Shown here one piece after another: positions 22,232 through 31,258 of a stretch of 46,491 nucleotides of DNA. This DNA is from a candidate division WOR-3 bacterium (GTDB lineage: Bacteria > SDB-A): assembly GCA_016934535.1 (NCBI GenBank), contig JAFGSQ010000034.1:1-46491 (forward strand), given 5' to 3'. The notes below the pieces were generated by a model. That model searched no databases and was not told where the DNA came from. It saw only the letters and a program-made list of their open reading frames with translations. Both the position numbers and the translations under genes were made by a program. The number at the start of each line of letters is the position of its first letter. Position 1 is the first letter of the stretch.

Positions 22232-23453
22232 CAGTTTACTTGTATCCGAGGGCGACATAAGATTTTATCTTTCTACATCAAGATATCTCGACAACAAAGG
22301 TGCGACTTGGCTTGAAATGTACATAAACGTTCCGTCAAATCCTGCGTTCAACTCAGTAAATCTCGATTTCGAAGTGATTGACAGCAAAGACAGCGTAAGA
22401 CTTTCAACATCATGGCCTATGGACATTCCCACGACTGAATCAAAATATTCCGCAATTGACAATTTTTCCTTCGACTTGTCGGAAACTTACACAGTGAAAA
22501 TCACTTTGACAGAACCTTTTGGCAGTAAAGAAGGACGGATTTCTTTCCGCGCGTCACCTTTGGAAGAAAACGCCGTACTGTCGGATATTCTGTTTTCAAA
22601 CAGCGTCTCAGCTTCATCCGATACCGGCGCACTGATAAAAAACGGTCTTTTGATATATCCTCTGTTCGACAGAGAGATGACTTTAATCAATCCCAAACTC
22701 ATCGTTTATTATGAAGTTTATCCCGATGAATCCAGCGATTCTGTCAGCGTTGTTTCGTCAGTATCCGACTCAGACGGGAATCAAATATGGAAATACACTT
22801 CATTTATAAACGCAGTCGAATCAGACGCTTATGTCGGAAAGGTGATAAATGTTCCCGTGGGAGATTTTAAGGACGGAGAGTACACTTTTAAAATCAATTC
22901 CGGCGGATTTGAAAGGACGGAAAGATTTACTGTCATTTGGGAACCTATTGAGACAACACTTGAAATCGGTGAAATGGAAATGTCTGATGTGGCCAAGGAA
23001 TACTACTTTCAGATTGAAGCTTTGCTCAATGTCAGACAGCTTCAAGTGTTTGAATCGCTCGATGCGGAAGGTAAAAAGAATTTTGCGCAAGTGTTCTGGA
23101 TTTCAAGAGATCCAAACCCCATGACGCCGATTAATGAAGACCTCGAGTTGTTTGCAGAGAGAATGGACTATGTAGACAATCATTTTTCGAGCGGTTTTGA
23201 AGCCGGCTACGAATCGGACAGAGGCAGAATTTACATAAAAAACGGAGGACCGGAAGAAAGGATAATCGTACCGGCGGACGACCATTACGTGCCGAATGAA
23301 ATCTGGGTTTATTGGAGGTACGGATGGAAATACATTTTTGCAGACATTTCAGGCCACGGGCTTTATGAGCTGATCTATTCCAATGATCCCAACGAAACCA
23401 ACCATCCTAACTGGGAAAGGTATACGAGTGAGAATCTCGGAGATGTTTGGTGA
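22200..23453 (+). CDS. GWxTD-domain secreted protein, copy 2 with diverged motif
   Basis: Second member of the pair, 417 residues, starting with a signal-like MFGAVILTIISSLLVSEG. Like copy 1 it has a beta-rich N-terminal part and a C-terminal GWxTD-type domain: VFWISRDPNPMTPINEDL, MDYVDNHFSSG, then GYESDRGRIYIKNGGPEE and IWVYWRYGWKYIFADISG. The core motif reads G-Y-E-S-D, so Trp and Thr of GWxTD are replaced while the following D-R-G is kept. The two proteins may form a heteromer, one partner having lost a conserved site. The stop overlaps the GTG start of nadB. Confidence 0.82.
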   Translation: MFGAVILTIISSLLVSEGDIRFYLSTSRYLDNKGATWLEMYINVPSNPAFNSVNLDFEVIDSKDSVRLSTSWPMDIPTTESKYSAIDNFSFDLSETYTVKITLTEPFGSKEGRISFRASPLEENAVLSDILFSNSVSASSDTGALIKNGLLIYPLFDREMTLINPKLIVYYEVYPDESSDSVSVVSSVSDSDGNQIWKYTSFINAVESDAYVGKVINVPVGDFKDGEYTFKINSGGFERTERFTVIWEPIETTLEIGEMEMSDVAKEYYFQIEALLNVRQLQVFESLDAEGKKNFAQVFWISRDPNPMTPINEDLELFAERMDYVDNHFSSGFEAGYESDRGRIYIKNGGPEERIIVPADDHYVPNEIWVYWRYGWKYIFADISGHGLYELIYSNDPNETNHPNWERYTSENLGDVW

Positions 23454-25024
23454 GAGAAAAAATAATAGTTGTCGGCTCTGGACTCGCCGGACTCTATTTT
23501 GCGCTCGAAATCAGCAGAAAATATGACGTCCTCATTCTGACAAAAAAAGAGGGCATTGACGCAAATACAAATTACGCCCAAGGCGGTATTGCTGCTGTCC
23601 ACGGCAAAGACGACGCTTTTGACATCCATTTCGAAGACACGGTGAGAGTCGGGGAAGGCTTGTGCCGTGAAGATGCGCTCAAAATCATGGTCGAAGAAGG
23701 ACCTGGCCTTGTCAGAAAACTGTTTTCACTTGGCGTGGAATTTTCCCAGACCGACGGATCTCCGGACCTCTGGCTGGAAGGAGGGCATTCGAGAAGAAGG
23801 ATCTGGCACGCGAAAGACAGTACCGGGAACGCAATAGAAAAAACGCTGATCTCGCTTGTAAAAAGCGACGAACACATCGAACTCAGGGAAAAAACGATGG
23901 TTTTCGACCTTATTATCGAAGAGGGAATATGCAGAGGGGTAAAGGTCCTCGATAATGAGGGAAAAAGACTGAAGGATGAAAGAGCGTGCGCCGTCATGAT
24001 GGCTTCGGGCGGCATCGGACAGGTGTTTGAGTTCACTACTAATCCGAAAATAGCGACAGGAGACGGCATCGCCATGGCTTTCAGGGCGGGAGCAACGATA
24101 TGCAACATGGAATTCATTCAGTTTCACCCCACAAGCCTTTACGAAGAAAACAGACCGGACGACATGAAATCTTTTCTTATATCCGAGGCCGTGAGAGGTG
24201 AAGGAGCAGTTATCAAGTCCATATCCGGCGATGAGATAATGAAAAATGTTCACAAACTCGGATCCCTGGCTCCAAGAGATGTTGTCGCCAGAGCAATTCA
24301 AGCGCACATGTTTGAAACCGGAGATAAACACGTCTTGCTCGACTTTTCGAATATCCCCGGAGAACGTTTTAAATCCAAATTTCCTCTCATTAACTATGAA
24401 TGCATTAAAAGGAATGTGGACCTGTCAAAAAAAGTTATACCCGTCGTACCGGCGGCTCATTATGTCTGTGGAGGAATAAAAATTGACCTGGACGGCAGAA
24501 CGGATATTCCGGCCCTGTTCGCGTCAGGTGAGGCGGCTTATTCAGGCGTTCACGGTGCGAACCGACTGGCATCGAATTCACTTCTCGAAGCGCTCGTTTT
24601 TTCAAACAGGGCGGCCAAACAGCTGCTTAATGGAAACAACAGCGTTAAGGAACCCGAATCCGGTCCGGTAATGAATTTAACCTGTTCATTGGGCGATAAG
24701 GAGGCTGAAGCAGTAAAAACCAAACTTCAGAAAATAATGTGGGAAAACTGCGGCATTGTCCGTCGACAGGAAAAACTTGACGAAGCTCTCGCAGAACTGA
24801 ACGCGATAAAATCAACTCTTAAACCTGAAGATTCGGTTTTTACAGTGGGTGGGGCCGAACTTACAAATATGTTTATCGTTTCTGAGCTGATAGCATACTC
24901 AGCTTCTTTGAGAAAGGAATCAAGAGGCTTGCATTACAGAAAAGATTGGCCGAATGCGAGAGAAATTTTTTCTCGCGACACAGAGTTGTCAATCAGAAAG
25001 GAGGAAAAATGGATGTCTCCGTAA
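23450..25024 (+). CDS. nadB: L-aspartate oxidase
   Basis: FAD enzyme that oxidises aspartate to iminoaspartate, the first step of NAD synthesis from aspartate. The N-terminal FAD motif is VVGSGLAGLYFALEIS. Next come NYAQGGIAAVHG, the active-site-region GGHSRRRIWHAKD, MEFIQFHPTSL, FLISEAVRGEGA, APRDVVARAI, HYVCGGIKIDLDGRTD, and ASGEAAYSGVHGANRLASNSLLEALVF. The C-terminal helical part has the family end SRGLHYRKDWP. Length (524) is normal. The GTG at 23450 overlaps the preceding TGA. No nadA or nadC is in the window, and the protein itself carries no cluster-binding motif. Fumarate could replace oxygen as acceptor. Confidence 0.94.
   Translation: MREKIIVVGSGLAGLYFALEISRKYDVLILTKKEGIDANTNYAQGGIAAVHGKDDAFDIHFEDTVRVGEGLCREDALKIMVEEGPGLVRKLFSLGVEFSQTDGSPDLWLEGGHSRRRIWHAKDSTGNAIEKTLISLVKSDEHIELREKTMVFDLIIEEGICRGVKVLDNEGKRLKDERACAVMMASGGIGQVFEFTTNPKIATGDGIAMAFRAGATICNMEFIQFHPTSLYEENRPDDMKSFLISEAVRGEGAVIKSISGDEIMKNVHKLGSLAPRDVVARAIQAHMFETGDKHVLLDFSNIPGERFKSKFPLINYECIKRNVDLSKKVIPVVPAAHYVCGGIKIDLDGRTDIPALFASGEAAYSGVHGANRLASNSLLEALVFSNRAAKQLLNGNNSVKEPESGPVMNLTCSLGDKEAEAVKTKLQKIMWENCGIVRRQEKLDEALAELNAIKSTLKPEDSVFTVGGAELTNMFIVSELIAYSASLRKESRGLHYRKDWPNAREIFSRDTELSIRKEEKWMSP
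24997..25004 (+). promoter_or_regulatory. Ribosome binding site deciding the hpf start
   Basis: AAAGGAGG four bases before the ATG at 25009, inside the end of nadB. It fixes the short 105-residue form and rejects a start 21 codons upstream. Confidence 0.75.
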
Positions 25025-25326
25025 CGATTAGGAACGAAGAACTCAAAACCGAATACGCTAAGATAAAAGACAAAATGGATTTGAAGATCGACAAACTAAG
25101 CCAGTTCGCGGAGGAAATTCATAATGTTAAATTAGTCGTAGATAAAAGCGGCGTAGACACAGTCGCGGAATTGTCACTGCATTCGAGAGGAAAAGATTTT
25201 TATTCAAAAGCAAAAACAAAATCTTTGAAAGAAAGTTTTAATTCTGCAGTAAGCAAGATGCAGGTTCAGATGAAAAAGGAATACGGCAAATACACTTCGA
25301 GAAGGCATAAGGAAAAAGAAGTCTAA
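25009..25326 (+). CDS. Short ribosome hibernation factor, HPF/RaiA family
   Basis: Small basic protein, 105 residues, that should bind the 30S decoding region and hold ribosomes inactive under starvation. The sequence follows the short HPF/YfiA fold: MDVSVTIRNEEL (strand 1), YAKIKDKMDLKIDKLSQFA (helix), VKLVVDK (strand), VAELSLHSRGKDFYSKAKT (strand pair), LKESFNSAVSKMQVQMKKEY (second helix), and a basic tail SRRHKEKE. There is no C-terminal dimerisation domain as in long HPF. It overlaps the 3' end of nadB and closes this plus-strand operon. Confidence 0.88.
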   Translation: MDVSVTIRNEELKTEYAKIKDKMDLKIDKLSQFAEEIHNVKLVVDKSGVDTVAELSLHSRGKDFYSKAKTKSLKESFNSAVSKMQVQMKKEYGKYTSRRHKEKEV

Positions 25327-25361: not shown

Positions 25362-26615
25362 TTAAAATTCGTAGATCACGTCGGCGTAAAAAATCGCGTC
25401 TCTGTAATTTTTTATGTGCGGGTTTCCGGCTACGTATAATTTTAGTGAAGCATCTCCGGTTCCGGCGGAAAATCCTGCTCCGAAGCTGTTTTCGTTTTTT
25501 ATCTTTTCCTGAATGTTTTCGAAGATAAGACAGTCGAAAAAAGCGAATAAATGACCGTTCTTGCCTGTGATGAAACGGGGTTCGAGTATTAGAAGTGATC
25601 CTTTACCTGCTGAAATACTCTCTTTTAAAAAGCCCCTCGGCCCTTTTTCGCCTCCGTACAGTATTCTCAAATCAAGGATGTCGGCGTCGGTCAAAACCGC
25701 TTGAGTTTCAGAAAATACACGGAAAGTAAAAGGCTTTCGGGGAAGGAAAAGTTCTGCTGAAAAAAGACAGGTAAAATCGTAATAATTTCTGTTTTGTGAA
25801 TGTAATCTGCCGTTTTTTATTTCTAAAAGCGCCGCGAATCCGTATACAGGGTTCCTGGGGTAATCTATGCGGTCAAAAAAAGCTCCGGATACGTTCCTGT
25901 ATGTTTCATAACGGTAGGCGGTCGAAGAAAATTCAACATATTCTGCGCCCGTGAAGAGGCCGAAACTGCCGAGGTTGTAAGTGAACTTCGCCTGGCCCGA
26001 GAGCCTGTCTGAAAACTCCTCTCTTCTGACAGACATATATATATCGGCATCTATTGGTTTTGAAAAAAGCCAGTACGTTTTAAGGGTGAATGACCATAGT
26101 GTTTTTTTCTCGTCAGGTTTTTCCCAGTTTACTGAAAGGCTGTGTCCCCTGCCTGCAATATTTTTTATGAGAGCGTAGATCTTTCCTCCGGTTGTTTCAG
26201 TTTCCGCGAGATAAAAAAATGATCCCGAAACGGAGTTCGATCGCCTCATTTTTAGGGGGATGACCAGAGAAGCATACTCAATCCTTCCTCGTGATTCAAG
26301 ATAGGGTATTCCGTCTGTTACGACATACCCCAGCCCATCCAATTTTTCGACGGCTTCAAGAATTTTTTCTGAATCGAAGAGGAATTCTGTTTTTGGAAGA
26401 CCGGTTTCGAGCAGAAGAAAGTTTTCGGAAGTCGAATGACTGCCTGCAAAGACAACTTCCCTCACTGTGACGTAAGGCCCTTCGTCGACTGAAAAAATAA
26501 CTGAAACGCCTCCTTCTTCGAAGGCGATTTCATCCACTTTCACCGAGGCGTATGGCTTGCCGGACAAAAGATAAAACGAGAGTATTTTTCCGGCGGCTGT
26601 CTCTACGTCCTCCAT
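25362..26615 (-). CDS. Outer-membrane barrel protein with POTRA domains (Omp85/TamA-like), 5' end disturbed
   Basis: Likely an Omp85-superfamily protein in the outer membrane. The N-terminal part shows POTRA character (YLLSGKPYASVKVDEIAFEE, VSVIFSVDEGPYVTVREVVF, then a second repeat, FLFDSEKILEAVEKLDGLGY). The C-terminal half is made of amphipathic beta strands ending in Phe (DAIFYADVIYEF), as barrels do. It contains FLKESISAGKGSLLILEPRF, like the late barrel strands of the family. The coordinates give the first ATG in frame, but the coding frame clearly continues upstream to 26705 (VNIEIEGAFSFPDS, a POTRA strand) with no ATG, GTG or TTG. An ATG at 26725 with a signal-like leader would join if one base were added in the T9 tract at 26693-26701. 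Confidence 0.78.
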   Translation of the reverse strand: MEDVETAAGKILSFYLLSGKPYASVKVDEIAFEEGGVSVIFSVDEGPYVTVREVVFAGSHSTSENFLLLETGLPKTEFLFDSEKILEAVEKLDGLGYVVTDGIPYLESRGRIEYASLVIPLKMRRSNSVSGSFFYLAETETTGGKIYALIKNIAGRGHSLSVNWEKPDEKKTLWSFTLKTYWLFSKPIDADIYMSVRREEFSDRLSGQAKFTYNLGSFGLFTGAEYVEFSSTAYRYETYRNVSGAFFDRIDYPRNPVYGFAALLEIKNGRLHSQNRNYYDFTCLFSAELFLPRKPFTFRVFSETQAVLTDADILDLRILYGGEKGPRGFLKESISAGKGSLLILEPRFITGKNGHLFAFFDCLIFENIQEKIKNENSFGAGFSAGTGDASLKLYVAGNPHIKNYRDAIFYADVIYEF

Positions 26616-26725
26616 TGCCGATATTTGCGAGATGAGGCTGTCTGGAAAAGAAAAAGCGCCTTCGATCTCAATATTTACGAAGGCGCAACAAGAAAAAAAA
26701 ACAAGTTAGTTACGTAAAGGAGCAT
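26616..26725 (-). other. Out-of-frame signal-peptide leader and T9 tract before the barrel gene
   Basis: On the minus strand an ATG at 26725 reads MLLYVTNLFFF and reaches a run of nine T (26701-26693), after which its frame soon stops. Adding one T would continue it as FSCCAFVNIEIEG straight into the POTRA frame. That would give a hydrophobic leader for an exported barrel. The ATG lies inside the end of the 138-residue gene (stop at 26706). The tract is either a sequencing or assembly length error, or a slippage-prone phase switch. Confidence 0.6.
26646..26686 (-). terminator. Terminator-like hairpin at the start of the barrel coding frame
   Basis: On the minus strand GCGCCTTCG (26686-26678), a 13-base loop, and CGAAGGCGC (26664-26656) form a perfect nine-pair stem. 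It is followed at once by TTTTTCTTTT (26655-26646). This has the form of an intrinsic terminator for the run of genes ending at 26706, yet it lies inside the open POTRA frame. It may act as an attenuator. Confidence 0.65.
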
Positions 26726-27122
26726 CTTGTCTTACATTTTTTAATTCTATCTCGTGGTTGAATACGAAATACTTGTTGAAAGGAATATCAAGCGCGTCTC
26801 CCAAGAGCCTGCAACTGTCTTTGTAGCTGAATCTGATGGCTACGCTGTCGCCAATCTCGCCGCTTCCTCTGCGTCTTATGATTATGCTGTCGGGAGATAC
26901 GGTTATACCTTTCTCTTTCATGAACTGAACCAATTTTGTTTTGATGACATCATTGTCGTCGTATTTGATCTTTTCGTCGGCTTTCTTTCTGATCTCATAT
27001 TGACGGATGGGAATTCCGATGAATTGAAAACCAATGTAACCGAGTATTATTAATATTAAAAATGTGAGCAGAATCCATTTTTTTGAATATCCGCTTTTGA
27101 AATTCTTTGACGTGTTTTTCAT
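26706..27122 (-). CDS. Single-helix envelope protein of unknown function
   Basis: I do not recognise the family. The 138-residue protein has a basic N terminus (KNFKSGYSKKW), one strong membrane helix (ILLTFLILIILGYIGFQF), and an extracytoplasmic domain rich in charge and beta propensity (VIKTKLVQFMKEKGITVSPD, SIIIRRRGSGEIGDSVAIRF). The topology suggests a type II membrane protein facing the periplasm. It starts 5 bases after the TPR gene stop and ends next to the barrel gene, so it probably belongs to one envelope operon. Confidence 0.75.
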   Translation of the reverse strand: MKNTSKNFKSGYSKKWILLTFLILIILGYIGFQFIGIPIRQYEIRKKADEKIKYDDNDVIKTKLVQFMKEKGITVSPDSIIIRRRGSGEIGDSVAIRFSYKDSCRLLGDALDIPFNKYFVFNHEIELKNVRQDAPLRN

Positions 27123-27127
27123 AATAA

Positions 27128-28282
27128 TCAGTAAATCTTTTTAAGTCTCGCAGCTTCCCGCAACTGCTGAACGTTGGCGAGTTTCTGCTGAGCTTGTGTT
27201 ACGTAAGAACCTGAAGTGGCGTTTGTGAAATATCCGATGGCTACGTCGCAATTGGCTATGCAGTCGTCCCAATCCTGATTGTTCCAAGCCTCTACGGCGG
27301 CGGCTTGATACTTTGTGCCGACCAAAACGTTGAGATAGCTGTCAGTAGAATACGAGGACAAAGCTTCCTGTGCGAACTGCATCGCGAGAGAGGTCTGACC
27401 GGAATTGTTGAGTAGGCCTATTACTTGTTTGTAGGCTGAAAGACCTCCTCCTTTGCTTATGGCTTCCCTGAAGCGGGAGATGGCTTCGCTGGTTCTTCCG
27501 GCGACGGCGAGGAGAGAACCGAATTCCATCAGCCTTTGAAGAGAAGAATCGGACTGTATAAGAATCTCCATGTGTTCGATCGCTTTGCCGTATTCATGCA
27601 TTCCTTTATAGGCGTCGGCTAACCATGCGTGTATTTCGATTCTGTCGGGATAGGCGATGAGTATCTCTTCGAGAAGGCTTGCCGCGTTTTCGGGACAGCC
27701 GGTTCCGACGTAACATTTAGCCATTCTCTGTTTGAGGGCTATTACAATAGCCGGGTCGTCGGTGAAACCGAGAGCGGTTTCGAGGTACGGCAGTGCTTCG
27801 GAAAATTTGTCTTGTTTGGTCAAAATATCAGCCAATCCGAGAATGGCTGTCGAATTTGTCGAGTCTATCGTGTAAGCTCTTTTGTACATGTTCTCCGATT
27901 CCTCGAAGTTCTCATTTTTGGAAAGATATGATGCGTATTCAATGTAAGTTTCAATTTTATCGGGGAACTCGCTCATCATCGTCTGCCAAATCGAATTTGC
28001 CGCGTCCATTGAATCGAGTTCTTCATAGAGGTTGCCGAGACCGACGTAAGCTTCTGTGTAGTCAGTTGAGCATGAAATCGCTTTTTCGTAAAATTCTATG
28101 GCTTCGGTCCACAATCTGCTGCGCTGGTAATTTATTGCGAGATTGTAGAATTTTTTACATCCGTATTCATCGTCTGATAAAGAGCCTTCAGAACCATTGA
28201 GAACCTGTCCTGTTGTCTGGCACGTTATCACGAAAAACAAAAACAGCGGCAGAAAGCCAGATTTTTTGAATATTTTCACCAT
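27128..28282 (-). CDS. TPR-repeat protein with export signal, probable lipoprotein
   Basis: About 384 residues. A signal segment (FLPLFLFFVITC) with a lipobox-like VITC suggests lipidation at Cys. The body is made of at least seven 34-residue TPR units, for example YNLAINYQRSRLWTEAIEFY, AYVGLGNLYEELDSMDAANS, ILGLADILTKQDKFSEALPY and IHAWLADAYKGMHEYGKAIE. TPR proteins of this kind act as scaffolds in the periplasm or at the outer membrane. The partner is unknown; the neighbouring lipoprotein, one-helix protein and barrel are candidates. The ATG at 28282 is chosen because GGAGGAA precedes it. Confidence 0.85.
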   Translation of the reverse strand: MVKIFKKSGFLPLFLFFVITCQTTGQVLNGSEGSLSDDEYGCKKFYNLAINYQRSRLWTEAIEFYEKAISCSTDYTEAYVGLGNLYEELDSMDAANSIWQTMMSEFPDKIETYIEYASYLSKNENFEESENMYKRAYTIDSTNSTAILGLADILTKQDKFSEALPYLETALGFTDDPAIVIALKQRMAKCYVGTGCPENAASLLEEILIAYPDRIEIHAWLADAYKGMHEYGKAIEHMEILIQSDSSLQRLMEFGSLLAVAGRTSEAISRFREAISKGGGLSAYKQVIGLLNNSGQTSLAMQFAQEALSSYSTDSYLNVLVGTKYQAAAVEAWNNQDWDDCIANCDVAIGYFTNATSGSYVTQAQQKLANVQQLREAARLKKIY

Positions 28283-28284
28283 TA

Positions 28285-28291
28285 TTCCTCC
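28285..28291 (-). promoter_or_regulatory. Ribosome binding site deciding the TPR gene start
   Basis: GGAGGAA on the minus strand lies two bases before the ATG at 28282, which begins the signal peptide. An upstream in-frame ATG at 28327 would add 15 polar residues before it. Confidence 0.65.
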
Positions 28292-28327
28292 GAATCTCCT
28301 TGGCTTGGAATGATTTGTTGATTTCAT

Positions 28328-29212
28328 TTATATTCCGCGAAATATTGAAGGGTCTGTCGCCTGAATATTTTCGGGGGAATAATCATAGGAAGACTTGGCA
28401 ATTTTTCTTGTCGTTACCGGAGTCCTGTTGCGGTCAGGAGAGTGCGCTGATATGAAATATTTTCTGTAAGGATCTGAAGTTATATAACTGAAGCCTTCGA
28501 GAGAAATCGCGTCTTTTATTTCATTTAAAACGGCAGTGTCTTCTATCACGGCTAAAGTGTCAAAAAGCCAAAGGCTGTTATCTCCTTCTTTTTCTTCGTA
28601 AGAGTATGAAGTGAAAGTCAGGTCGTAATCACCCGGAACAAAAGCTATGATTCCGCTGTCTTTGACTGCGAGAAGGTTATCCGGGGTAATATCGTATATG
28701 TGAAAGGGGCGGTCTGTTCCTCCGTCACGAAGTGCTATCAGGAAACTTGTGTCCTTGACGCGGAGAATTGCCGAAAGGTCTTCTGTTTCAACGAAAGAAA
28801 GGGAGGCGTCCAGAGTGTCAATAATGAGATGCCTGTCGGATGTCCTCAGGTAATATACCCATCTTCTCAGCAGGAATTCTTTGTTTTTAAACAGGATGCT
28901 GTCGCTTGATTCGTTGAAAACAAGAGTGTCCTTGATGTAGGACAAATATACGCTTCTGTTTTCGCAGATGACGTAAATTCCGCTGTCATTAACTGTCAGG
29001 CGGGCGTCGTATGTCGCAGACGTGAGATTTTCCGACAGGAAAGGGTAATGACCTCTTACCTGATAGAATTTGTCCATTGTCTGTCTGAGGTTTTTCAAAG
29101 CGAGTTCAGCTCTTTTGATCTTTCCTGAGGCGTCGGCTTCGGATTCAGTTACGCAAGAAAAGGAACTCAAAAGGAGTACAACCGAAAAACAGCATATAAG
29201 ACATTTCTTCAT
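28328..29212 (-). CDS. Lipoprotein with a pseudopilin GspG-like segment
   Basis: Lipoprotein of 294 residues: signal CLICCFSVVLLLSSFSC with the lipid Cys at the end. Directly after it, KIKRAELALKNLRQTMDKFY, then QVRGHYPFLSENLTS, resembles the region after the transmembrane helix in type II secretion major pseudopilins, where a helix leads to an RxxxGxYP turn. The rest, about 200 residues, is beta-rich and unknown. It lacks a prepilin peptidase site, so it is not an ordinary pilin. GGAGGTAG precedes the ATG. It heads the run TPR protein, one-helix protein, barrel, and lies just downstream of tRNA-Ala. Confidence 0.7.
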   Translation of the reverse strand: MKKCLICCFSVVLLLSSFSCVTESEADASGKIKRAELALKNLRQTMDKFYQVRGHYPFLSENLTSATYDARLTVNDSGIYVICENRSVYLSYIKDTLVFNESSDSILFKNKEFLLRRWVYYLRTSDRHLIIDTLDASLSFVETEDLSAILRVKDTSFLIALRDGGTDRPFHIYDITPDNLLAVKDSGIIAFVPGDYDLTFTSYSYEEKEGDNSLWLFDTLAVIEDTAVLNEIKDAISLEGFSYITSDPYRKYFISAHSPDRNRTPVTTRKIAKSSYDYSPENIQATDPSIFRGI

Positions 29213-29241
29213 GCTACCTCCATATTAATATCAAATATTTT

Positions 29242-29318
29242 TGGTGGAGCTGACGGGATTCGAACCCGTGGCCTATTGACTGCCAGTCAATCGCGCTAGC
29301 CAACTGCGCCACAGCCCC
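29242..29318 (-). tRNA. tRNA-Ala (anticodon GGC)
   Basis: Full cloverleaf of 77 bases including encoded CCA. Acceptor GGGGCTG pairs with CAGCTCC and gives the G3-U70 pair that identifies alanine tRNAs. The D stem is GCGC/GCGC. The anticodon stem is ATTGA/TCAAT with loop CTGGCAG (anticodon GGC). The T arm is ACGGG-TTCGAAT-CCCGT. The discriminator base is A. It lies inside a protein-coding run on the same strand, between the Gx transporter and a lipoprotein gene. Confidence 0.97.
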
Positions 29319-29320
29319 AC

Positions 29321-29839
29321 TTAAAAAGTTATTTTATATGCATCCGGCTTTGTGTCAAGGTTTTTTAAAGTTTTTGACAGAATGTGCGATACTGTTCCGG
29401 TTATCAATCCGGTTAAAACACTGAATGCAAACACGAAAGGGAACAGGGAAGACATGATCCCCCCGACTATTATGTCGGCAAAAAACAAAACAATCACGTT
29501 GTGAAGACAGCTTGCCGCCACACTCGCGCCAACGGGACCTGACCCCGGTATTTTTACAAAAAAACACATAACGGCGAAACTCGACAGCGAAGCCACACAG
29601 ACGGCCAAAAAAACCGGAGTCAGCATTGAACCGGAAATAATCCCGGAAGCGGCGATTTTCAGCAAGACAGTAAAAAAAGCCGATGAGAGATTTCCTTTCA
29701 GGATAAGGTATAGAATGACGGCATTTCCGAAGCCGATCCTGAAAAAAGTCGGGTTCAAAAAACTCTCCATAACGTGAAGAGCGATTGCTATTGTCGAAAA
29801 AACCGATAGTTCAATTATTTTGTCGAGTTTTATTTTCAC
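29321..29839 (-). CDS. Gx transporter family membrane protein
   Basis: Small membrane protein, 172 residues, five or six helices, of the family once labelled heptaprenyl diphosphate synthase component I and now Gx transporter, related to ECF substrate-binding components. The typical opening is ELSVFSTIAIALHVMESFLN, followed by FRIGFGNAVILYLIL and HNVIVLFFADIIVGG. The substrate is unknown. It starts with GTG two bases after the stop of the NusG-II gene, a pairing widely conserved in anaerobes, and lies downstream of apbE. Confidence 0.85.
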   Translation of the reverse strand: MKIKLDKIIELSVFSTIAIALHVMESFLNPTFFRIGFGNAVILYLILKGNLSSAFFTVLLKIAASGIISGSMLTPVFLAVCVASLSSFAVMCFFVKIPGSGPVGASVAASCLHNVIVLFFADIIVGGIMSSLFPFVFAFSVLTGLITGTVSHILSKTLKNLDTKPDAYKITF

Positions 29840-29841
29840 GG

Positions 29842-30225
29842 TCAGTATGTAGTTGCGTCAATGTCCGGTTTTTGTCCGGATATGGAGAGCCAGACTCCGT
29901 TAGGCAGGCACGCCGAGGATTCCCACGTTCTTTTTATCCATCCGCGTTTTTCGCATATTTTGTTACGGCATGGTGAGGAAAGTATTCTCGCTTTGCCTGA
30001 TTTGATTTCGATTACTGTCATGCCGATATCACCTTTCACGCTCAAAACAGTGTCAGTTGACATACTGAGTACGTGCCTTTCGCCGGAGGCTGTTTCAACA
30101 ACAGCGTAAAAAGCGGGCTCCGAAGGTTTGAATTTCAAAACAAGGAAAAGTACCGACAATGCTAAAAAAAAGGTAAAAATTATGTAATCGGCGGGATACG
30201 GGTACAATTTGAAGATTTTTTTCAT
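29842..30225 (-). CDS. NusG domain II-containing small membrane protein
   Basis: About 127 residues. One N-terminal helix (YIIFTFFLALSVLFLVLKF) is followed by a small beta domain with the NusG-II family pattern SSPCRNKICEKRGWIKR, then ACLPNGVWLSISG. The conserved cysteines sit in CxxxxC and ACLPN. The domain should lie outside the cytoplasmic membrane. No function is established, and it is not a transcription factor despite the name. The paired Gx transporter gene follows immediately. Confidence 0.87.
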   Translation of the reverse strand: MKKIFKLYPYPADYIIFTFFLALSVLFLVLKFKPSEPAFYAVVETASGERHVLSMSTDTVLSVKGDIGMTVIEIKSGKARILSSPCRNKICEKRGWIKRTWESSACLPNGVWLSISGQKPDIDATTY

Positions 30226-30241
30226 GTCGTCGGGATGTGTG

Positions 30242-31258
30242 TCAGATGAGAAATCCCGTTTTTCTACCGCATTTTGAGCACTTGCCGTCTGTTATACCTT
30301 TTATCGAAGAGTCGAAAAGATATCTTTCAATCCAGAGGTTGCCGCAGTCCGGACAGTAAGAATTCATTTTTTTTCCTACGTTTCCGAAGAAAACGAATTT
30401 CAGGCGTTTTTTTGCTTCTTCGTAAAATCTCATCATGTCCTCTTCATCGGTCGGAGGAGTTGTATACTTGTAATTAGGAAAATATTTGGATATGTGATAG
30501 GGGATCTCGTCGTCCAGCGAAGCCAGAAATTCCGCCGCTTTTGCTATTTCGTCTGTCGTGTCATTAAAACCTGTTACGACAAGGGTCGTCACTTCTACGT
30601 GAACTGAATTTTCTTTGAGAAAGGCTATAGTGTGTAGAACCGAATCGAGGTCGCCTCCGAGTATTTTTCTGTATTTGTCGCTGGAAAATGTCTTGAGATC
30701 TATGTTGGCACCGTCAATCAAAGGAGTCAATTCTTTCAAAGGTTCCGGATTTATTACACCGTTCGAGACTATAACATTGTAGCCGCCGTTGTCTCTCACT
30801 TCTTTGCCGGCGTCGAGAAGATATTCAAACCACACCAGAGGTTCCGTGTAAGTGTAAGCTATTCCTATGGATCCGTTCTGCTTTGACATTCTGCCGGCCT
30901 CCATTGGAGAAAGGTAAACCGTCCGGGCCAGGGTCTGGGATATGGTGTGATTCTGACAGAAAGGGCAGTCGAGATTGCATCCGTTAGGGGCTATAGAGAG
31001 AATGTTCGATCCCGGTTTGAAATGATACAGGGGTTTCTTTTCTACCGGGTCAAGAGAAACAGAGACGGTTTTTCCGTAACCAAGGTTGTAAAGAGTTCCT
31101 TCAATATTACCTCTTATTTTGCATAGTCCGGTTTTACCCTGTTCTATGACGCAGTTGTGAAAACAAAGCAGGCACTTCACTGCGCCGCTGTCCAGTTTTT
31201 CGAAAAATTCCGCTTTTTTTTTCGTTTTCAATCCAATGTCCCGTGTTCGGTTTTCCAC
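30242..31258 (-). CDS. amrS: AmmeMemoRadiSam system radical SAM enzyme
   Basis: Radical SAM protein of 338 residues. An N-terminal cysteine segment (CLLCFHNCVIEQGKTGLCKI) is followed by the cluster motif APNGCNLDCPFCQNH, CxxxCxxC form, GIAYTYTEPLVWFEYLLDAG, and VEVTTLVVTGFNDT. The C-terminal zinc-ribbon has CPDCGNLW, then CSKCGRK. The family is named for its usual association with AMMECR1 and MEMO domains, but neither is encoded in this window. The reaction is not known to me. The GTG at 31258 overlaps apbE by 31 bases; a TTG near 31231 overlapping the apbE stop is also possible. Confidence 0.88.
   Translation of the reverse strand: MENRTRDIGLKTKKKAEFFEKLDSGAVKCLLCFHNCVIEQGKTGLCKIRGNIEGTLYNLGYGKTVSVSLDPVEKKPLYHFKPGSNILSIAPNGCNLDCPFCQNHTISQTLARTVYLSPMEAGRMSKQNGSIGIAYTYTEPLVWFEYLLDAGKEVRDNGGYNVIVSNGVINPEPLKELTPLIDGANIDLKTFSSDKYRKILGGDLDSVLHTIAFLKENSVHVEVTTLVVTGFNDTTDEIAKAAEFLASLDDEIPYHISKYFPNYKYTTPPTDEEDMMRFYEEAKKRLKFVFFGNVGKKMNSYCPDCGNLWIERYLFDSSIKGITDGKCSKCGRKTGFLI

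Follow-up and report, generated by a model that had tools for sequence, protein, structure and literature searches.

A run of nine T residues, together with the hairpin that follows it, probably forms a programmed frame-change cassette – a reading to which we assign a probability of about 0.7 – at the head of a gene for a BamA/Omp85-like protein. The evidence comes from three genomes of one genus and is of sequence only; what these genomes share is real, conserved and confined to this one locus, and it is laid out like a programmed frame change. The window, that is, the whole stretch of 46,491 nucleotides analysed, is a contig of a 2.23-Mb draft genome. The features of the site are as follows:

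26706..27122, minus strand: upstream gene, 138 aa, with one N-terminal membrane segment; its TAA stop marks the upstream limit of the POTRA frame
26723..26725, minus strand: putative leader ATG; each of the three genus members has it 24 nt 5′ of the T run
26675..26725, minus strand: 0-frame leader ORF MLLYVTNLFFFLVAPS followed by a stop, terminating in the hairpin loop
26693-26701, minus strand: T9, the candidate slippery tract (A9 on the plus strand; T11 and T9 in the relatives)
26678..26686, minus strand: hairpin 5′ arm GCGCCTTCG, 6 nt 3′ of the T tract
26656..26664, minus strand: hairpin 3′ arm CGAAGGCGC, after a 13-nt loop (26665-26677) and followed by TTTTTCTTTT
25362..26705, minus strand: POTRA plus barrel reading frame, 447 codons, BamA/Omp85-like, with no canonical start before codon 31

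Read directly from the window, the minus strand around 26700 is ...CAAGATGCTCCTTTACGTAACTAACTTG-T9-CTTGTTGCGCCTTCGTAAATATTGAGATCGAAGGCGCTTTTTCTTTT.... The POTRA frame opens at 26705, immediately 3′ of the TAA at 26708-26706, and reads LVFFSCCAFVNIEIEGAFSFPDS...; its first ATG, GTG or TTG is the ATG at 26615, which bears out the initial annotation's description of a frame that is open up to 26705 and lacks a start. The same annotation held that the ATG at 26725 begins a hydrophobic leader that one added T, making the tract T10, would bring into the POTRA frame, and a reading of both frames confirms it. This ATG sits within the last codons of the upstream gene, for which a search for a family match returned none, and the heptamer U_UUU_UUU is present in the ATG frame at 26699-26693, inside the tract. 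No Shine-Dalgarno sequence precedes ATG 26725, a lack shared by several real genes here, and no SD-like stimulator lies 5′ of the T tract.

That the product is Omp85-like, as first proposed, is borne out by several profile comparisons. The POTRA model PF07244 scores above its cut-off in the window protein, POTRA is matched in all four family members, and a four-sequence profile compared with BamA structures matched the POTRA region and the start of the barrel (best 7.9e-13); TIGR03303 gave a weak match to the same profile. All four members, moreover, carry a PRGF/PRGY motif, which may correspond to the L6 (V)RGF/Y motif of the Omp85/BamA superfamily. The Pfam Omp85 barrel model matches just one of the four (E 0.006), and AlphaFold run on the four sequences gave a poor, low-confidence barrel with a mean pLDDT of 48.8. 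The protein departs from the family at large in its length of 447 codons, its short POTRA region and its accessory status, the last because four other Omp85 proteins are encoded elsewhere in the same genome.

The frame is open over 447 codons and shows third-position-biased variation in all species, and is therefore under selection as a protein. In the genus comparison the third codon positions are the most variable, and this holds before codon 31: the protein sequence ahead of the first canonical start is conserved, varying mostly at third positions. An internal start at 26615 was rejected on these grounds, since it would cost the protein its conserved N-terminus and any signal peptide and is lacking in G001.

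Four genomes of the phylum were compared: that of the window, two other species of the genus (G001 and G002) and an outgroup (G003). Among the matching records G002 is a candidate division WOR-3 MAG (a Zod_Metabat bin) and G003 the "Desulfuromonas sp. SDB" MAG. The record LKUE01000029.1 carries that Desulfuromonas label, and its genome groups in the family of the window genome with a WOR-3 MAG, so it is probably a misnamed MAG. An orthologue of the BamA-like gene is present in all four genomes in the order TPR lipoprotein, small membrane protein, BamA-like gene; identity to the window protein is 61% and 59% in the two other genus species and 28% in G003. Orthologues of the upstream gene are 74-76% identical in G001 and G002, and 53% in G003. 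As far back as an AmrS-like gene, the order was confirmed in G002 and G003: in the window, 27128-31258 extends the cluster through an AmrS-like protein, a short protein, a membrane protein, a lipoprotein and the TPR lipoprotein to the small membrane protein and the Omp85 gene.

The initial annotation had proposed comparing the same site in related genomes. The off-frame layout recurs in G001 and G002, but the outgroup has an in-frame TTG. Although the run measures T9, T11 and T9 in the window genome, G001 and G002 – at least nine T at the frame junction in each – the POTRA frame stands at -1 relative to the ATG frame in each species, and its first canonical start lies at codon 31, 54 and 30, respectively. 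The frame relation in G001 is unchanged because the two bases gained in the run are accompanied by a loss of five from the sequence 3′ of it. Each species thus carries an X_XXZ_ZZN motif in the 0 frame together with a downstream -1 ORF, the elements of a -1 frameshift signal, and in each the 0-frame stop falls within the hairpin loop. The joined leaders are alike (MLLYVTNLFFFSCCAFVN, MHLCVSSLFFFFSAFVN and MLLCVIDLFFFSVCAFVN). Between the upstream stop and the run, the three species have TTG, CTG or CTC, all of them Leu in the ATG frame but differing residues in the POTRA frame; this small sample of varying Leu codons favours translation in the ATG frame up to the run.

How commonly do such tracts occur in this genome, and what becomes of the genes that contain them? 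A survey of sampled stretches yielded 87 distinct tracts of at least nine T or A, 54 of them within intact ORFs 200 aa or more in length and 30 between genes, at the ends of genes or in small ORFs. Three were associated with apparent breaks: the T9 site, the trmD-rplS junction and, within the window, a pair of short ORFs. The second of these, a seeming frame break at an A9 tract, is an ordinary trmD-rplS junction, and the T9 site is the sole tract of the 87 that heads a start-less ORF. Among the genes of the window, runs of at least nine A number 2 against 5.5±1.7 expected, and runs of at least nine T number 0 against 0.3±0.5. Shorter coding-strand runs in these genes were also counted: T runs of at least six number 56 against 25±3.9 in synonymous shuffles, and those of at least seven 19 against 7.8±2.5, so that both exceed twice the shuffled frequency, whereas A runs of at least nine are rarer than expected.

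These counts bear on the plainest account of the locus, put forward at the outset as the alternative to a switch: that the true tract is T10 and has been misassembled, or that the gene has decayed. Homopolymers are error-prone and the assemblies are drafts. Against this, the off-frame layout is common to two other assemblies and the genome holds 54 sampled tracts of nine or more T or A within intact genes, and a homopolymer length error is therefore unlikely; nor is the long open, third-position-biased frame what decay would leave. We regard error or decay as the least probable of the explanations considered.

A second conserved element follows the tract. The hairpin has a perfect 9-bp stem, identical in the three genus species and placed 6, 1 and 6 nt past the run (window, G001, G002), with folding energies of -16.3 to -16.6 kcal/mol. 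When the coding sequence was recoded synonymously with the gene's own codons, structures as stable arose in 0.4%, 0.2% and 1.1% of trials in the three species. The stem codons that specify invariant residues (A8, F9, I14, E15 and G16) are identical across the species in five of five cases, as against 67 of 205 such codons (33%) over the whole gene; by our own arithmetic the product of the per-residue rates for these five is approximately 0.001-0.002. Loop codons next to the stem, in contrast, vary among species. There are no compensatory stem changes in the three species and hence no support from covariation; nonetheless, this comparison of sequences shows a hairpin conserved beyond protein constraint. 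Each of the three genus genomes contains it a single time, at the BamA-like locus only, which rules out membership of a genome-wide repeat or terminator family.

A conserved hairpin is not what one would predict from the ON/OFF switch initially suggested. On such a reading replication would alter the length of the tract and the gene would be ON only where the two frames meet, all three assemblies having been caught OFF. Homopolymers are a classic form of switch at surface-protein genes (PMC3711429), and the tract does vary in length between species. Yet all three share the same OFF frame, an outcome of about 1 in 27 were frames random; the change to T11 is compensated outside the tract so as to preserve the frame relation; and the many tracts of nine T or A in intact genes of this genome mean that T9 alone is no sign of a switch. 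The expression of an Omp85-like protein through slippage at the T tract remains well supported; a DNA-level ON/OFF form of such slippage we consider improbable. The shared off-frame state, the compensated length and the hairpin are together better suited by a fixed frame change in RNA or at the ribosome.

The hairpin could also be seen as half of an intrinsic terminator: a GC-rich 9-bp stem followed by TTTTTCTTTT, ATTTTCTTTT or TTTCTCTTTT, controlled by translation of a short Phe-rich leader whose 0-frame stop is positioned in the loop, so that a ribosome halted there would melt the stem. The T-rich tail, however, also codes for a conserved FSFP, a competing antiterminator is absent from the computed folds, and no Rfam family matches the site. 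Moreover, attenuation provides no start for the POTRA frame and could only supplement recoding, with which it may coexist; as the explanation in its own right it has a slim chance.

The outgroup raises a different possibility. The candidate frameshift site conserved in the three genus members is absent from G003, where both T run and hairpin are missing and an in-frame TTG lies 2 nt after the upstream stop. Reinitiation is plausible there, and since the upstream stop directly abuts the POTRA frame in the genus as well, ribosomes finishing the upstream gene might restart at a near-cognate codon of the POTRA frame with no change of frame. The only near-cognate shared ahead of the conserved N-terminus is ATC (codon 14 in the window), and a start there would leave no signal peptide; indeed, about ten in-frame residues at most are available before the conserved part. 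The T run and hairpin would in addition go unexplained, and we think it unlikely that the genus uses such a start. The G003 orthologue itself has a very short hydrophobic leader, MLLLFIICSF, so that its signal peptide is also odd. Readthrough of the upstream stop was discarded, because the three species end the gene with TAA, TAG and TGA and because the frames differ in G003.

An outer-membrane barrel requires a signal peptide, and we propose that the missing half is supplied by the leader in the ATG frame. Under the frame-change reading, translation would start at ATG 26725, within the end of the upstream gene, and produce MLLYVTNLFFF as the first half of the signal peptide. Some of the decoding events would gain one base relative to the template at the U tract, either because the ribosome steps back by one on U_UUU_UUU, assisted by the hairpin 6 nt downstream, or because RNA polymerase inserts an extra U. 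The shifted frame would then run on as ...SCCAFVNIEIEGAFSF... into signal peptide, POTRA and barrel, while translation that does not shift would yield 16-17 residues and stop in the hairpin loop. In this way the output of an accessory BamA-like protein would be held to a fixed proportion of upstream translation. That shifting occurs, at which level, how often and to what end we infer from what was read directly: the layout, its conservation and the constraint on the hairpin.

Several features count against the cassette, among them the missing Shine-Dalgarno sequence and SD-like stimulator and the lack of compensatory stem changes. The joined leader lacks both Lys and Arg and is rather short compared with other signal peptides; the leader ATG may be incidental to the Asp-Ala codons of the upstream gene; G003 uses an in-frame TTG; and in G001 the hairpin is 3 nt from the in-frame heptamer, as compared to 6 nt in the window and G002. 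A stronger form of the proposal – a genus-wide, obligatory frameshift in the signal peptide, such that every exported copy of the BamA-like protein would need a hairpin-tuned slip on the U tract – we hold at even odds.

The level at which the frame changes is a separate question. A -1 shift by the ribosome has somewhat less than an even chance: the hairpin at 6 nt favours it, U_UU.U_UU.Y is among the efficient -1 frameshift motifs in E. coli, and the rule that bacterial frameshift hairpins lie 4-10 nt after the motif (PMC4066793) fits the window and G002. Transcriptional slippage, favoured by the T9-T11 run, is possible, though more doubtful. One criterion for its programmed form is that the organism avoids 9A/9T in genes (PMC1088944). 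The frequency of intact nine-base runs in this genome argues mildly against very efficient slippage by the polymerase, whereas the mild A9 deficit among window genes argues the other way.

Known systems resemble the proposed cassette in part. In mxiE of Shigella flexneri slippage at a run of Us yields a longer product, and there too one extra base at a U run joins two overlapping frames (PMC1088944); mxiE encodes a transcription activator, whereas here the shift would fall within a signal peptide, that of an outer-membrane protein, and the run is followed by a conserved hairpin. The -1 frameshifts of dnaX and the IS1/IS3 families likewise combine a slippery heptamer, a short-spaced hairpin and a -1 second ORF (PMC4066793). 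Their motifs are prevalently A-rich as opposed to U_UUU_UUU, and the present site differs further in having no SD-like stimulator and no mobile element, and in that the shift would come about 11 codons past the start. Transcriptional frameshifting at A11 in tssM1 of Citrobacter rodentium resembles our proposal in that homopolymer slippage restores a cell-envelope protein (PMC4256274). A ratio of products is required in that system (PMC4256274). Its unshifted product is a long functional protein, in contrast to the peptide of 16-17 residues predicted here.

The event would be of a known kind and its gene context apparently new: the literature searched, mostly without subscription papers, contained no BamA, Omp85 or outer-membrane protein with programmed slippage. 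To our knowledge, most known bacterial programmed frameshifts belong to mobile elements or to a few cellular genes (dnaX, prfB, copA). If the proposal is true, the amount of an outer-membrane protein is set by recoding and not by an ordinary start, and a conserved frameshift on which a signal peptide depends would put recoding to a new use, in a phylum that has been little studied, and would account for the annotation of such genes as start-less or as fragments. The three-species set makes the proposal testable with a reporter.

Two further observations concern the neighbourhood. A tRNA gene (29245-29318, minus strand) lies inside the conserved gene cluster. On the other side of the BamA-like gene, the ORF at 24946-25326 encodes a protein resembling ribosome hibernation factors, with an HPF/YfiA profile match below cut-off, and overlaps the end of its upstream gene, 23447-25024.
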